The position numbers and the translations under genes are program-made. A stretch of DNA of 64,000 bases from NCBI GenBank assembly GCA_001664505.1, contig CP011806.1, positions 4,428,926-4,492,925 of the forward strand, written 5' to 3'. This document shows, piece by piece, positions 2,089 through 15,645 of this stretch; within the stretch, counting starts at the first letter, position 1, and each line of letters begins with the position of its first letter. The DNA is from Acidobacteria bacterium Mor1. GTDB taxonomy: Bacteria; Acidobacteriota; Polarisedimenticolia; Polarisedimenticolales; Polarisedimenticolaceae. The notes under the pieces were generated by a model. The model searched no databases and had not been told where the DNA came from. It saw only the letters and a list, made by a program, of their open reading frames with translations.

Positions 2089-2174
2089 GCCGTATTTGCA
2101 GATCAAGACGCACCGGTCCCTGGAGACTCCTCACAAAAAAATCCGCTGAGAGAAAAACTTCCGCTGGAGCCGCG

Positions 2175-2792
2175 TCAGCCCATATGTAACGCGAAGTTGA
2201 TCGTGCCGGCGAGCCAGATGCCGAACCCGATCGCCACCTGCCAGCGCACTCGGCGGGCATGCCAGACGAACAGCCCGAAGAACAGCAGGTAGGTCAGCAA
2301 CCAGAAAGGCTCTACACCCTTCCCGATCAGATGCCCCAGGCTGCGACTGATAGCCGGCTCCATCAGCATGAACGTACCGAACAGGATGTCGGACCTGTGC
2401 TCCTGCGGGTTTCGTTTTCTCACGGCGAAACCCCGGGCGATCAGCAGAGTGCCGTAGGCCAGGCAGGCCATGTTGAGCAGCGTCAGCGGCGCGATGCTTC
2501 CGGTCTCGATGTATCGGGTGACGTAGAGATAGATGGTGGTCACCAGGAACGCGGGATAGACCACGAGACCGGAGAGGCCCAGGGTCATGTGGAGTCCCGG
2601 GCGGCCGCGCCGGACCAGCGAGGCCTGGGCCAGGAGCAGGCTGAACCAGGTGAAGGCGAAGAACGCATGGATCAGGATGCCCGGTTCGGAGTTGCTCTCC
2701 TGCCCGACGTCGGTCAACCAGTTATCCGAGAAACCGAACACCATCAGGCCCCAGAATGTCAGGCTGATGATGAAGTGGAAGTGTTTTCTCAA
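2175..2792 (-). CDS. Multi-pass membrane protein of unknown function
   Basis: The 205-residue protein has about six hydrophobic segments (near residues 5-22, 40-58, 70-92, 102-122, 160-178 and 185-203) and little else. A TTG start at 2792 is supported by GGAGAAGGGG upstream. A short polar stretch with KRNPQEHRSD sits between segments 4 and 5, in front of LMEPAISRSLGH; this resembles small uncharacterised membrane proteins of soil and marine bacteria, but I cannot name a family with confidence. It lies upstream of the secreted protease on the same strand with a 165-base gap, so co-transcription is possible but not shown. Confidence 0.7.
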   Translation of the reverse strand: MRKHFHFIISLTFWGLMVFGFSDNWLTDVGQESNSEPGILIHAFFAFTWFSLLLAQASLVRRGRPGLHMTLGLSGLVVYPAFLVTTIYLYVTRYIETGSIAPLTLLNMACLAYGTLLIARGFAVRKRNPQEHRSDILFGTFMLMEPAISRSLGHLIGKGVEPFWLLTYLLFFGLFVWHARRVRWQVAIGFGIWLAGTINFALHMG

Positions 2793-5723: not shown

Positions 5724-5845
5724 TTGCGGTATTCCTCCGGGAAAGCTGGACGGATTCCGGTTTCCCCGGTAGATACGAAGAGACGGGTCCGCGGTTTCCG
5801 CGACCTTCCGGAATAGGCCCGGGCGCCCAGGAGGTTTTCGAGGAC

Positions 5846-6247
5846 ATGGAATTCCTCAAGAAGAACCGCATTCCGCTGGCGATCGTTTTCGTCGTCGTGG
5901 TTGCCTGGAGCTTCCTCCGGACCCCGGCCACCCCGATCGCCTCGGTGGAAGAACTTGACGCGCGCCTCTCCACCGGCCGGCCCGTGGTGTTGGAGTTCTT
6001 CGCCAACACGTGAATGGCCTGCCTCGTGGCCAAGCCCATCGTGAATGGGATCGAGAAAGACCTGAAAGGAACGGCGGAGGTGATCCGCCTGAATCTGCTC
6101 GGCGACGTCGGCCAGGAAGCGGCGCGGCGTTACCGGGTATCCAGCGTGCCGGCCACGGTGTTGATCGCCCCCGACGGACAGGTGGCGCTCCGCCAGATCG
6201 GCATGCCCGACCGGGGAGAATTCGTCTCCAAGGCCCGGGCATTCTGA
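5846..6247 (+). CDS. Membrane-anchored thioredoxin with in-frame TGA: candidate selenoprotein (UxxC)
   Basis: The frame opens at ATG 5846 (AGGAGG 11 bases upstream) and reads 55 codons to TGA at 6011-6013, then continues in the same frame for 77 more codons to a TGA at 6245. Residues 9-24 are a hydrophobic anchor. VVLEFFANT then precedes the TGA, and MACLVAKP follows it. This is exactly where thioredoxins have their first active-site Cys, so the motif reads U-M-A-C with Cys59 intact. Further on, VSSVPATVLIAPDG is the cis-Pro loop. Both halves look normal, which argues against a decayed gene. Reading through would give 133 residues, normal for an anchored thioredoxin. Selenocysteine is my preferred reading; a TGC-to-TGA mutation or base error is the alternative. 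Confidence 0.7.
6011..6049 (+). promoter_or_regulatory. Candidate bacterial SECIS region after the in-frame TGA
   Basis: Two short stem-loops follow the TGA: TGGCC/GGCCA (6015-6019 with 6028-6032, loop TGCCTCGT) and CCCAT/ATGGG (6035-6039 with 6045-6049, loop CGTGA). The second places its loop 26 bases past the TGA with a G in the first two loop bases, as I recall for bacterial SECIS elements. Pairing was judged by eye and the stems are short. Confidence 0.4.
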
Positions 6248-6398: not shown

Positions 6399-9300
6399 AT
6401 GCTTCAAATCGCGATGTTCTTGTGGATCTCGGCGGCGACGTTTCCGGTCGACGCAGCGGAGCGAACGGTAGGCTTCGCCGACCGGGTCGCCGCGACCGAC
6501 GACCGGGTCGCCGCGACCGACGACCGGGTCGTCACCTTGGATGACCGGGTCGCGGCGCAACAGGCGATCGATCAGGTCTATCGGAGGTTCACCGTCGGAG
6601 CGGCCGCTATCGACCCGGCACATGCCGAGCAGCGGGCTCGCCGGCGTGTACTCGAAGACCTGCGGCTCAGCCTTGTGGTCGCCGATCAATGGGGCGCGGC
6701 GGTCACCGACGCCGCCCTGCAAGCCGAACTGGAGCGCATCGCCCGGGATACCCGCATGCCGGCCCGGCTCGACGCGGTCTACGGCGCGCTTCATCGTGAC
6801 CCGGTAATGGTCCGCGAGGTGTTCGCCCGATCGGTGCTGGTCCGGCGGCTGGCCCGCCGCTTCTTCAGCGCGGACAGCCGGCTGCAAAACTACGAGAGCT
6901 GGGATACGTGGTGGGCCGCCGCCCGGGATCGCTACGAACCGGAGACGAGCTCGAAGTCAGCCGCGACGTTGGCTCCTTTACCCACGCCGCGCACGCTGGG
7001 GGCCTCGACGGAAGCGGCGGCGTGTGCGCCTGACGACACCTGGACCGAGAGCAGCCTCGACGACCATCCCGATCCGCGTCACGCCCACACCGCAGTGTGG
7101 ACCGGTACCCGCATGATCGTCTGGGGTGGGAGTATCCACAACGATGTCGCCGGCACCGGTGCGATCTACGATCCTTTGACCGACGCCTGGTCGACGATCT
7201 CCAACGTCGGCGCGCCGCGACCTCGTCAGCAGCACACCGCGATCTGGACCGGCAGCGAGATGATCGTCTGGGGCGGCGACGGCTGGACCGACGGCGTCAG
7301 CATCGGTGGCCGTTACGATCCCGTGACCAACACCTGGTCTCCGATGTCCCAGGCCGGAGCGCCCAACGGCCGGCGCAGTCATGCAGCGGTCTGGACCGGT
7401 AGTGAAATGATCGTCTGGGGCGGAGTCCAGACCAACGGCGGGCCTTCGACGTTGCAAACCGGCGGCCGCTACGATCCGGTCAGCGACAGCTGGACCCCGA
7501 CATCCCTCACCGACGCCCCTCCGGCCAGCCAGGGGGCTACCGCGGTCTGGACCGGCAGTGAGATGATCGTCTGGGGAGGATCCGAAGGCCTCTTCAGCGG
7601 CGACGCCCTCAGAAGCGGCGGCCGCTACGACCCGGTCAGCGACAGCTGGACCGCGACGAATCTCGACGGGGCTCCGCTGGCTCGCACCGGCCACAGCGCC
7701 GTCTGGTCCGGCGACGAGATGATCATCTTCGCCGGGATCTCCGCCGGTGGCACCGGTGGCCGCTACGATCCCCAAAGCGACAGCTGGACCGCGACGAGCC
7801 TGCCCAACTTCTTCGGGACCCGCTACAACCACGCCGCCTTCTGGACCGGTAGCGAGATGATCATCTGGGGCGGCGACGGCGGTTCCGGCACCTCCGACGA
7901 ACGGGGGGACGGCGAACTCTACGATCCGCAGACCGATAGCTGGAGCCCTGTCTCGGCACTCGACGCGCCGACGCCGCGCACCCAGGCCGGCGCCGTCTGG
8001 ACCGGCGAGCAACTGATCGTCTGGGGAGGCAGGCACTCGGGACGGGACTACGTCACCGGCGGGCGCTACGACCTGGCCTCGGACAGCTGGACCCCGACCC
8101 ACGTCTCCGACGCGCCGGCCCTGCGTCAGGACCACGCCGCGGTCTGGACCGGAAACGAACTGATCGTCTGGGGTGGCATCGCTCCGGGGCGGCTCCTCTA
8201 TCAGGCGGCGCCTCTGGCCGACGGTGCTCGCTACGATCCGCTGGTCGATACCTGGACGCCGACCAGCGTTGCCGGGGCGCCGACTGCGCGCTACGGCCAC
8301 GAAGCGGTCTGGACCGGTAGCGAGATGGTGCTCTGGGGCGGGATCGACAGCGCCCACACCGATACCGGCGCCCGCTACGATCCGCTGCTCGACCAGTGGT
8401 CCGCCATCACGACCACCGGAGCGCCTGCTGCCCGGGAGCAACATACCGCCACCTGGACCGGCAGCGAGATGGTGGTGTTCGGTGGACAGCTCGATTCCGG
8501 AGACGTGACTTCCACCGGAGCCCGCTACAACCCGGGTACCGACAGCTGGACCAGCCTGCCGACGTTCAACGCTCCCGAGGCGCGACGGCTGCACACCTCG
8601 GTCTGGGCCGATGGGGACGTGATGATCTGGGGTGGCCTGGGCGAGACGACCCGGGACCCGATCGAACTCGACAGCGGTAGCCGCTACAGCACCTCGCTCA
8701 ACGCCTGGATTCGTATTCCTCGCTTCGACGCGCCGGGGCCGCGCTACGGCCACGTCTCGGTCTGGACCGGAAGCGAACTGATCGTCTGGGGCGGCCGCAA
8801 CGATACCGACCAGGCGACCCTGGGGAACGGCGGCCGCTTCGAGCGCAACGCCGGGGTCTGGCAGGCGCTGGACGATGCGGGCGCGCCGGAAGGGCGCCGC
8901 TTTGCATCGGCGGTCTGGACCGACGAGGGCATGTTTGTCTGGGGAGGGGATTCCAGCGATTTCCTCGAACTCAGCAGCGGCGGCCGTTACGACGACGCCA
9001 CCGACAGTTGGAGCGCCAGCTCGTTGCTCGGGGCGCCTCAGGGCCGGCTCGATTCGACCCTGGTCTGGACCGGCGATGCGGCGATCCTCTGGGGTGGTCA
9101 CGTCGGCGGCCATGGATTGAACACCGGCGGCTTCTACGCCGTGGGCAACCCGGATCTCGATGTCGACGGGGTTGCCGACGGTTGCGATTGCGCTCCGTCG
9201 GACCCGGGAGTTTTCGCCGCGCCGGGCGACATCGGAGGCCTCGTCTTCGATAGCGACAAGGAGACGCTCAGCTGGGGCTCCCTGGCGGCGCAATCCGGTT

Positions 9301-9530
9301 CCGCCACACTCTACGACGCGATCCGGGGATCGCTCTCGCAATTGCCCGTGGGCGGCACCGGTGAAACCTGTCTCGAGACCGGCGGCGCCGATCTCACCCT
9401 GGTCGATAGCGCGAACCCGGCGGCGGGTGAAGGCTTCACCTATCTGGTGCGAGGGCGCAACGCCTGCGGCAGCGGCAGCTACGGTTTCTCGAGCGACGGC
9501 GCGGAGCGCACGACCAACGTTTGCCCCTAG
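6399..9530 (+). CDS. Large secreted kelch-repeat (beta-propeller) protein with PPIase-like N-terminal helices
   Basis: The 1043-residue protein starts with a signal peptide (about 1-20), then a short tandem segment of DRVAATD-type heptads (about 28-52), then a ~110-residue helical region resembling SurA/PpiC N-terminal domains. From about residue 215 to 905 there are 14 kelch-type repeats of about 48 residues, each with AVWTGSEMIVWGG and GGRYDPVSDSW signatures, enough for two seven-bladed propellers. A D-rich calcium-type stretch (DLDVDGVADGCDCAPSD) leads into a C-terminal module ending YLVRGRNACGSGSYG. That module recurs in the cytochrome at 25567-28620. GGGGGAG precedes the ATG. Likely surface or secreted binding protein; ligand unknown. 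Confidence 0.85.
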   Translation: MLQIAMFLWISAATFPVDAAERTVGFADRVAATDDRVAATDDRVVTLDDRVAAQQAIDQVYRRFTVGAAAIDPAHAEQRARRRVLEDLRLSLVVADQWGAAVTDAALQAELERIARDTRMPARLDAVYGALHRDPVMVREVFARSVLVRRLARRFFSADSRLQNYESWDTWWAAARDRYEPETSSKSAATLAPLPTPRTLGASTEAAACAPDDTWTESSLDDHPDPRHAHTAVWTGTRMIVWGGSIHNDVAGTGAIYDPLTDAWSTISNVGAPRPRQQHTAIWTGSEMIVWGGDGWTDGVSIGGRYDPVTNTWSPMSQAGAPNGRRSHAAVWTGSEMIVWGGVQTNGGPSTLQTGGRYDPVSDSWTPTSLTDAPPASQGATAVWTGSEMIVWGGSEGLFSGDALRSGGRYDPVSDSWTATNLDGAPLARTGHSAVWSGDEMIIFAGISAGGTGGRYDPQSDSWTATSLPNFFGTRYNHAAFWTGSEMIIWGGDGGSGTSDERGDGELYDPQTDSWSPVSALDAPTPRTQAGAVWTGEQLIVWGGRHSGRDYVTGGRYDLASDSWTPTHVSDAPALRQDHAAVWTGNELIVWGGIAPGRLLYQAAPLADGARYDPLVDTWTPTSVAGAPTARYGHEAVWTGSEMVLWGGIDSAHTDTGARYDPLLDQWSAITTTGAPAAREQHTATWTGSEMVVFGGQLDSGDVTSTGARYNPGTDSWTSLPTFNAPEARRLHTSVWADGDVMIWGGLGETTRDPIELDSGSRYSTSLNAWIRIPRFDAPGPRYGHVSVWTGSELIVWGGRNDTDQATLGNGGRFERNAGVWQALDDAGAPEGRRFASAVWTDEGMFVWGGDSSDFLELSSGGRYDDATDSWSASSLLGAPQGRLDSTLVWTGDAAILWGGHVGGHGLNTGGFYAVGNPDLDVDGVADGCDCAPSDPGVFAAPGDIGGLVFDSDKETLSWGSLAAQSGSATLYDAIRGSLSQLPVGGTGETCLETGGADLTLVDSANPAAGEGFTYLVRGRNACGSGSYGFSSDGAERTTNVCP
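6480..6557 (+). repeat. 21-bp in-frame tandem repeat in the kelch gene
   Basis: Units start at 6480, 6501, 6522 and 6543 (last one partial). Each begins GACCGGGTCG; the first two are identical over 21 bases and the third diverges in its second half. They encode DRVAATD heptads, so copy-number change would keep the reading frame. Confidence 0.9.
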
Positions 9531-14034: not shown

Positions 14035-15645
14035 TCAGTTCGCAGAGGCGACGACGTTGTTCCCCTCGATGGCCTCGAGGATCATGCGGGTCATCTGCTC
14101 CGGGTTGCCCCGGGGGAGCAGCGTGACCTTGCCGTCACGGTCGATCAGGTAACGAGCGGGCACACCCTTGACGCCGAAGGCCCGGCTGACGTCGCTCTTC
14201 CAGCCGCCTTCGGCATGGAGTTGCGGCCAGACGAAGCCGTACTCCTCGACGAACGCCTCGGTGTCCTCGACGGTCTTGCTGAACGAGACACCCAGGATCT
14301 GGATGTCACGCCCGACCTGCTCGTGGAGCCGGGTCATCTGCGGCGCTTCCGCCGTGCAGAACTTGCACCACTCGGCCCAGAAGTCGACCAGCACCAGTTG
14401 TCCGCGCAGGTCCGAGAGCCGGACGCGCTCGCCGTAGGAGGATTCGAACACCAGGTCGGGCAGGTCGCCGGCGATCGGAGTTTCGGCATGTCCCTGGACC
14501 TTGTCGCAGTCGAGGTTCGCGCAGTCGGTGTTGCAGTCGACCTTGTCACAGTCGCAGTCGCAGTCCTTGTTCAGATGGTGGCCGGCGGCGTCGCCGTCGA
14601 TTCGTTCGGCCCGGTCAGCGGGCACCAGCACCGGTGCGTCATTCAGGTCAGGCCAGTTGGCCGCGGTGGTGGTCGCCACCAGGATCATCAGGAACGAGCC
14701 CACGAGGGTCAGGCCCAGCGCCCGCCTGCGCGAGCGGAAGGGTGAGGGGTTTCGGAACAGCATGTCGATTCTCCTGCGGAGGTGCGCTCCGCGATCCGAG
14801 ATGGTGGCCATCGCGGTCGAGGCCACGACCCGCCGGGCGACCGCCATCTCGGCGACGCGCAGCAAGCAGTTTCCATAGTCGCCGGCGCGTACGCCGCGGC
14901 GAATCACCGCTTCGTCGCAGGCCAGCTCCTGGAGGTCCGATAGCTCCCGGGTCCAGCCGTAGGCGGCGGGGTTCCAGAAGTAGAGGACGCGGATCAGTTC
15001 GAAAGCCACGCTCCAGATCGGATCGTGGCGCCGGTAGTGTTGAAGTTCGTGACAGATGGCGACACGCATCATCTGCGAGTCGCGCATCATCCAGACCGGC
15101 ACGACCACGTGGGCCCTGCCGAAGATTGCCGTGGAAAACGGCACCGAAGCGCGATCCGACACCACCACCGACACTCGGCCGATGCGGCGGAGGGGTACCG
15201 AGGCACGCACGATTTGACGTAGTTGAAACACCCGCCGGAGGGCGACGAAGCCCGAACCGGCAAGGCCGAACAGCAGCGCGGCGCCGAAGTACGGAGCGGC
15301 GGTCTGCAGCCACGAAGCATTGACCACCGAGACCGTATCGCCGGCAGCGGGGGAGCTGCTCAGCATGCCGGAGAGCGCGCCGAAAAGGCGATTCAGCTCT
15401 TCCGCGCCGGCACTGACGGCGCTGCCTGCGGCAGCGCCTGCAGGAAGTTTCAGCGAGAGCAGGCCGTGGGCCGCCAGCGGGGCGAGGAGCGCTGCAGCGA
15501 AGAGCAGCCGCCCGGCACCGATCATGCCGCTGGGGTCGATATGTTGCTGCATGGAGCGGCGTGCGGTGCGCAGGATGAGGTAGGCGACGGCCAGCACGAG
15601 GCCCAGCTCGAGATAGGCCAGTAGAGCCGTTGAGAGCACATTCAT
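14035..15645 (-). CDS. BlaR1-like M56 metalloprotease fused to a TlpA-type thioredoxin
   Basis: The 536-residue protein begins with several membrane segments (about 5-25, 43-60 and 110-137) and a M56 protease domain with HELQH at 199-203 and LACDEAV at 241-247. A further membrane segment (about 308-328) leads to a linker with six Cys in Asp-rich context (Cys362, 364, 366, 371, 375, 380) and then a TlpA/redoxin domain (about 392-530) with AEWCKFC (Cys427, Cys430) and cis-Pro496. BlaR1-type proteins sense a signal outside and cleave a BlaI repressor inside; here the usual penicillin-binding sensor is replaced by a redox domain, so redox or metal sensing is my inference. The ATG overlaps the repressor stop codon by 4 bases. 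Confidence 0.85.
   Translation of the reverse strand: MNVLSTALLAYLELGLVLAVAYLILRTARRSMQQHIDPSGMIGAGRLLFAAALLAPLAAHGLLSLKLPAGAAAGSAVSAGAEELNRLFGALSGMLSSSPAAGDTVSVVNASWLQTAAPYFGAALLFGLAGSGFVALRRVFQLRQIVRASVPLRRIGRVSVVVSDRASVPFSTAIFGRAHVVVPVWMMRDSQMMRVAICHELQHYRRHDPIWSVAFELIRVLYFWNPAAYGWTRELSDLQELACDEAVIRRGVRAGDYGNCLLRVAEMAVARRVVASTAMATISDRGAHLRRRIDMLFRNPSPFRSRRRALGLTLVGSFLMILVATTTAANWPDLNDAPVLVPADRAERIDGDAAGHHLNKDCDCDCDKVDCNTDCANLDCDKVQGHAETPIAGDLPDLVFESSYGERVRLSDLRGQLVLVDFWAEWCKFCTAEAPQMTRLHEQVGRDIQILGVSFSKTVEDTEAFVEEYGFVWPQLHAEGGWKSDVSRAFGVKGVPARYLIDRDGKVTLLPRGNPEQMTRMILEAIEGNNVVASAN

Follow-up and report, generated by a model that had tools for sequence, protein, structure and literature searches.

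Within the window, by which we mean the whole 64,000-nucleotide stretch of the Acidobacteria bacterium Mor1 genome analyzed here, a reading frame on the forward strand is interrupted by a TGA codon. The question raised by this locus is whether that codon is read as selenocysteine (Sec). On comparative sequence evidence we consider it very probable that it is, and that this is a true selenoprotein gene: the TGA is conserved, Cys forms exist at the same codon, a hairpin downstream of it covaries, the genome encodes the full Sec machinery, and the product has a thioredoxin fold. The original prediction had described 55 coding codons with a membrane anchor, a TGA at 6011–6013, and 77 further codons, and translation of 5846–6247 confirmed this arrangement, which closes with a TGA stop at 6245–6247. 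The features of the locus are the following.

5829–5834, plus strand: AGGAGG, probable ribosome-binding site, 11 nt upstream of the ATG.
5846–6247, plus strand: predicted selenoprotein gene of 133 codons, the Sec codon counted, followed by the stop codon TGA at 6245–6247 (translation, Pfam, relatives).
5867–5917, plus strand: N-terminal membrane anchor helix, residues 8–24 (helix in the structural model, hydrophobic sequence; K5, K6, and R8 suggest an N-in/C-out orientation).
5948–6244, plus strand: thioredoxin domain, approximately residues 35–133 (PF00085 above cut-off; fold match with Z 15.0).
6011–6013, plus strand: TGA codon 56, the U of U-M-A-C, very probably read as selenocysteine (38 distinct family rows have TGA here and 7 have TGC).
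6020–6022, plus strand: resolving Cys59 (TGC), replaced by Ser in UxxS members (alignments, motif listing).
6035–6049, plus strand: SECIS-like hairpin CCCAU-CGUGA-AUGGG, stem 6035–6039/6045–6049, loop 6040–6044 (covariation, Sec/Cys contrast).
6149–6151, plus strand: Pro102, the cis-Pro of the fold (invariant in a 12-row alignment).

The read-through protein matches the Pfam Thioredoxin family PF00085 at 32.2 bits (cut-off 23.5) over residues 35–128, and the match therefore spans the TGA. An AlphaFold2 model built with 12 family members as input (mean pLDDT 92.9) displays a thioredoxin fold on the N-terminal helix 8–24, the single N-terminal hydrophobic helix of the protein. The top structural match among 999 solved chains compared was human Trx2 (1uvz_C, Z 15.0, rmsd 1.6, 101 residues). 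Within this fold the TGA stands where the C-x-x-C motif has its first Cys, and Cys59 and Pro102, the latter at a position whose role in the thioredoxin fold is established, are both present. The earlier description of a U-M-A-C motif with the second Cys, the cis-Pro, and the rest of the fold intact thus stands. The nearest relative (G004) begins with an identical MEFLK. A promoter scan found none. Automatic annotation would probably truncate the protein at residue 55.

Conservation of the TGA itself is the first line of evidence. Across 396 genomes of the phylum there were six matches at 182–212 bits, each with one TGA, and the next match scored 61 bits. The six comprise the source genome and five full-length relatives (G004, G056, G068, G080, and G103), the TGA falls at codon 56 in all of them, and these strong matches were also recovered in a smaller set of 100 relatives. 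The relatives share the codon at 26–53% protein identity in independent assemblies. We also searched genome contigs with two patterns, one with Cys at the Sec position and the other lying upstream of codon 56, so that neither required a TGA in the forms it recovered. Of the 16 loci returned, 15 carry TGA at codon 56; their titles name Acidobacteriota, Chloroflexota (Thermoflexia, Anaerolineae), one Rubrobacter, and one ‘bacterium’ (Bpl_9), and the sixteenth locus (L102, Arachidicoccus) encodes an ordinary thioredoxin with CMPC. A search of viral contigs returned no relative.

A sample of 400 Chloroflexota genomes, the phylum of G396, yielded 50 listed matches of at least 72 bits, 41 with a TGA and 9 with none; the codon was read in 30 loci only, and the other listed matches rest on automatic stop counts. 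The 34 matches read codon by codon divide into 25 with TGA and 9 with Cys, and the latter are two ordinary CGPC thioredoxins and seven family members with TGC (L109, L116, L118, L119, L124, L128, and L131). The original prediction had pointed to homologues with Cys at this exact codon as support for selenocysteine, and these seven, all CxxC, are such homologues. The family signature, with exceptions, is F-x-x-x-U-x-x-C-L-x-A-K/R-P-x-V-D, and some members are UxxS (UGAS in L098, L099, L113, and L121; UASS/UAKS in L125 and L123). In one side case (L123 and L125; G439:C20 and G483:C25) TGA copies stand in tandem, UAGC plus UAKS/UASS, with roughly 0.3–0.4 kb between them.

Two alternative readings have to be weighed against this pattern. 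The alternative named in the original prediction was a single-base change (TGC to TGA) in a Cys gene, which might be a sequencing error or a strain-specific nonsense mutation; TGC and TGA differ by one base, and ordinary Cys thioredoxins exist in genomes of the phylum. Recurrence of the TGA in independent genomes excludes a read error or a change confined to this strain. Furthermore, the 13 codons after the TGA keep their third base in 7/8 and 8/10 of the same-residue codons in the two nearest relatives, against no more than about half in the rest of the gene, and we regard a single-base change as vanishingly improbable. The gene might instead be decaying, or encode a short protein of 55 residues that ends at the TGA, since the anchor and first strand fit within that length. 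However, across dozens of genomes the downstream half is a continuous frame that still encodes a thioredoxin-like sequence, Pro102, Gly111, and Pro121 downstream of the TGA are invariant in the 12-row alignment, and nearly all family matches in the phylum and Chloroflexota samples have this one TGA and no other stop. We consider this reading to have a negligible chance of being correct.

What went beyond the original prediction, together with the spread of the family across phyla, is a covarying SECIS-like hairpin that begins 21 nt after the TGA. The bacterial SECIS model given in the Fig. 2 legend of PMC13188914 has a loop of 3–9 nt, a stem of 4–16 bp, a G at loop place 1 or 2, a UGA-to-loop distance of 16–37 nt, and an MFE of at most −7.5 kcal/mol. 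With a 5-nt loop, a 5-bp stem, G at the second loop place followed by U, a TGA-to-loop distance of 26 nt, and an MFE of −14.6 kcal/mol over 46 nt starting at the TGA, the hairpin lies within every limit stated in that legend. All 38 distinct TGA rows place it at equal distance with a 5-bp stem, a 5-nt loop, and G and U at loop places 2–3. (Row counts exclude the two CGPC thioredoxins and L103 and L104, which are copies of L088 and L099; L062 of G080, with 4/5 hairpin pairs, is outside the 38 rows.) Unconstrained RNAalifold on a 15-row DNA alignment, with L100 and L094 left out as near-copies, predicted only the hairpin at 6035–6049.

Over the 38 TGA rows, 96.3% of stem cells are paired, compared with 20.5–56.3% for slid positions, and the covariation score is 0.336 compared with 0.006–0.137; none of 500 shuffles reached either value. 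The third stem pair is C-G in 29 rows, U-A in 7, G-C in 1, and unpaired in 1, and the fourth is G-C in 21, A-U in 15, U-A in 1, and unpaired in 1. One side of the third pair is the silent base in a Pro codon and the other is base one of codon 69 (Gly/Arg), a coupling that would not be expected from protein constraint alone. Folded individually, 29–34 of the 38 TGA rows, depending on the stretch folded, give the hairpin a probability above 0.5, and the source gene folded from the TGA onward gives 0.99. When the folded stretch (6005–6065) also takes in sequence 5′ of the TGA, a different structure is favored, and that fold is not clearly better than shuffles (z −0.94).

The hairpin also distinguishes Sec from Cys forms. 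All five pairs form in 31/38 TGA rows and at least four in 38/38, whereas among the Cys rows the figures are 0/7 and 1/7 (L128, four pairs), a contrast with a Fisher p of 7.6e-5 that ignores relatedness. Codon 69 follows the same division: it is GGG (29), AGG (8), or CGG (1) in 38/38 TGA rows and never one of these in the Cys rows (0/7; GAA, GAA, AGC, CGA, AAC, CAA, and GGC). Readthrough of a TGA is in principle possible without Sec machinery, and the codon could be decoded as another amino acid through near-cognate suppression or a TGA-sense code. Against this, TGA is also the gene's own terminator, the genome encodes the full Sec machinery, and the residue replaced is the catalytic Cys, with relatives that have Cys there having lost the hairpin. 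Decoding as a different amino acid is therefore very unlikely, and we retain selenocysteine as the reading of codon 56.

We then considered the machinery required for such decoding. The source genome has a completeness of 99.98 and consists of one contig, 5.985 Mb in length, and the selA, selB, selC, and selD genes whose presence had been proposed as a check were all found: SelA at 442.6 bits, SelB at 330 bits (cut-off 242.25), SelD at 358.4 bits, and tRNA-Sec (selC) with anticodon TCA at 72.7 bits (gathering score 47). SelA was also detected in 15/16 carrier genomes of one set and 20/21 Sec carriers of another, and went undetected in two carrier genomes, G401 and G623. We set the machinery aside as decisive proof, given that SelA is common in the phylum (272/392 genomes) and present in 7/7 Cys-form carriers tested; the complete machinery is permissive, not decisive, for the selenoprotein claim. 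Since Cys forms occur in Sec-capable genomes, loss of the machinery is not the reason for the switch to Cys. Two Cys forms, L143 and L147 (G640:C10 and G803:C7), are located approximately 8 kb away from selA, and the genes in between follow nearly the same order in both genomes. Apart from one in-frame TGA directly ahead of ASKMGP, the frame of the source genome's SelD (L018, G000:C1:2910488-2911429, minus strand) is open, and this SelD is probably a selenoprotein itself; its UASK matches the UxxK motif given for selenophosphate synthetase in Table 1 of PMC13188914.

In bacteria, SelB brings Sec-tRNA to the hairpin, which it binds, and UGA is decoded as Sec on the ribosome. TGA 6011–6013 would be decoded with tRNA-Sec and SelB, the hairpin at 6035–6049 serving as the SECIS element, along the general lines of bacterial Sec insertion outlined in PMC13188914 and PMC1088965. 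The product is predicted to be a thioredoxin-fold protein tethered by one N-terminal helix, most likely outside the cytoplasm, with Sec56 and Cys59 as its redox pair. Residues K5, K6, and R8 at the N-terminal end of the anchor and R25 behind it suggest that the thioredoxin domain faces outward. Sec56 would then attack a disulfide or other oxidized thiol of envelope proteins and Cys59 would act as the resolving residue. Its most likely activity is that of a selenol/thiol-disulfide oxidoreductase which would reduce or exchange disulfides of envelope proteins, and we favor an extracytoplasmic disulfide role for this anchored thioredoxin with reasonable confidence. In the UxxS branches the motif would supply one redox residue, or a partner thiol would be needed. 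These members, L098, L099, L113, L121, L125, and L123, lend some weight to a selenoprotein whose role is something else than disulfide exchange, such as that of a selenol peroxidase or a sensor. The window protein and most members are UxxC, in contrast, and the Cys forms are CxxC in 7/7, so this alternative is unlikely, if less remote than the others, and disulfide exchange remains our preferred function.

In ResA, DsbE/CcmG, and StoA, which are extracytoplasmic proteins, a single membrane helix at the N-terminus anchors a thioredoxin-fold domain bearing a redox pair. The window protein resembles them in its single helix, its fold, its redox pair, and its probable location. However, it scores far under the cut-offs of their models (21.7 against 170 for ResA, 13.9 against 123.15 for dsbE, and 13.7 against 210 for StoA), which bears on family membership and not on how the protein functions. 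It likewise falls under the NCBIfam cut-offs for TrxA proper (TIGR01068, an equivalog; 50 bits, cut-off 96.8) and for TsoB, a rhodanese/DsbD fusion-like selenoprotein (NF045694; 12.5 bits, cut-off 805), and it matched no model of NCBIfam 20.0 above cut-off. SaoT (NF040730) and HUIPC (NF047660) were unlisted at E up to 1, and the release searched may be without these models. For the other 11 alignment members the NCBIfam comparison gives best E-values only, without cut-offs.

The closest precedent is the Sec-thioredoxins (PF00085, UxxC), an experimentally verified family in Table 1 of a 2026 review (PMC13188914), and going by that table the gene is of a known kind. The sequence features by which a Sec-thioredoxin is recognized, namely the Pfam domain, a conserved TGA, Cys homologues, a SECIS element fitting the bacterial model, and selA/selB/selC/selD, were all found here. 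Like those proteins, the window protein belongs to the thioredoxin family, would have U at the first active-site Cys and a resolving Cys, and has its SECIS-like hairpin within the coding region; it differs in its N-terminal anchor and in the signature that its relatives share, and may belong to a separate subfamily. We found no description of an anchored Sec-thioredoxin subfamily in the PMC literature searched. The deep-Sep paper (PMC12013277), which for a single Acidobacteriota genome lists three selenoprotein genes already known, nowhere uses the word thioredoxin.

The distribution of Sec and Cys over the family was followed on a tree of 57 rows, 46 of them family rows, with L062 (G080) included. 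The state changes five times over the 46 rows, and the Cys forms are nested at five points among the rows with Sec. The family as a whole has moderate support (86/79), and as the root is a drawing aid, we infer the Sec-to-Cys direction only from the nesting. In independent pairs the hairpin goes with Sec in 4/5, with no difference in one (p 0.125, from a test that with five pairs cannot reach p 0.05). From these patterns we put forward, at about even confidence, a broader proposal: an undescribed anchored Sec-thioredoxin family may span Acidobacteriota, Chloroflexota, and Rubrobacter, with Sec ancestral and approximately five reversions to Cys accompanied by SECIS loss. The hairpin would fix residue 69 as Gly/Arg through its NGG codon for as long as Sec is kept, and the UxxS branches would be one-selenol enzymes. 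The family offers natural close pairs, Sec with the hairpin and Cys without it, which make testable both the SECIS constraint on the host protein at residue 69 and the question of why an envelope thioredoxin would need selenium, and it points to extracytoplasmic Sec use in Acidobacteriota and Chloroflexota.

Several neighboring or similar genes were seen along the way. No gene is conserved beside family members across 16 sources and 34 loci (L050 and L087 being the same place), and no neighbor points to a partner; synteny is at clade level only, with an EF-G-like gene (by reading) upstream in 6 loci and a glycosyltransferase-like gene downstream in 4. For a TGA match in G025 (L054), tblastn gave nothing clear. 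Another candidate, L055 (G094:C32, approximately 2144–2419, minus strand), was rejected as a family member: it is a different thioredoxin-like protein with FYADW-TGA-GSC and a C-terminal part that reads as TPR-like, and shortly 3′ of its TGA stands GGAC-CGUGAA-GUCC, which is also SECIS-like. In the window, a large Kelch-repeat protein (6399–9530, plus strand; PF24681, 264.1 bits) lies directly 3′ of the selenoprotein gene. Farther along, 14035–15645 on the minus strand encodes what we take to be a membrane protein of the BlaR1/M56-like type, to which a thioredoxin-like domain containing WCKFC is fused.
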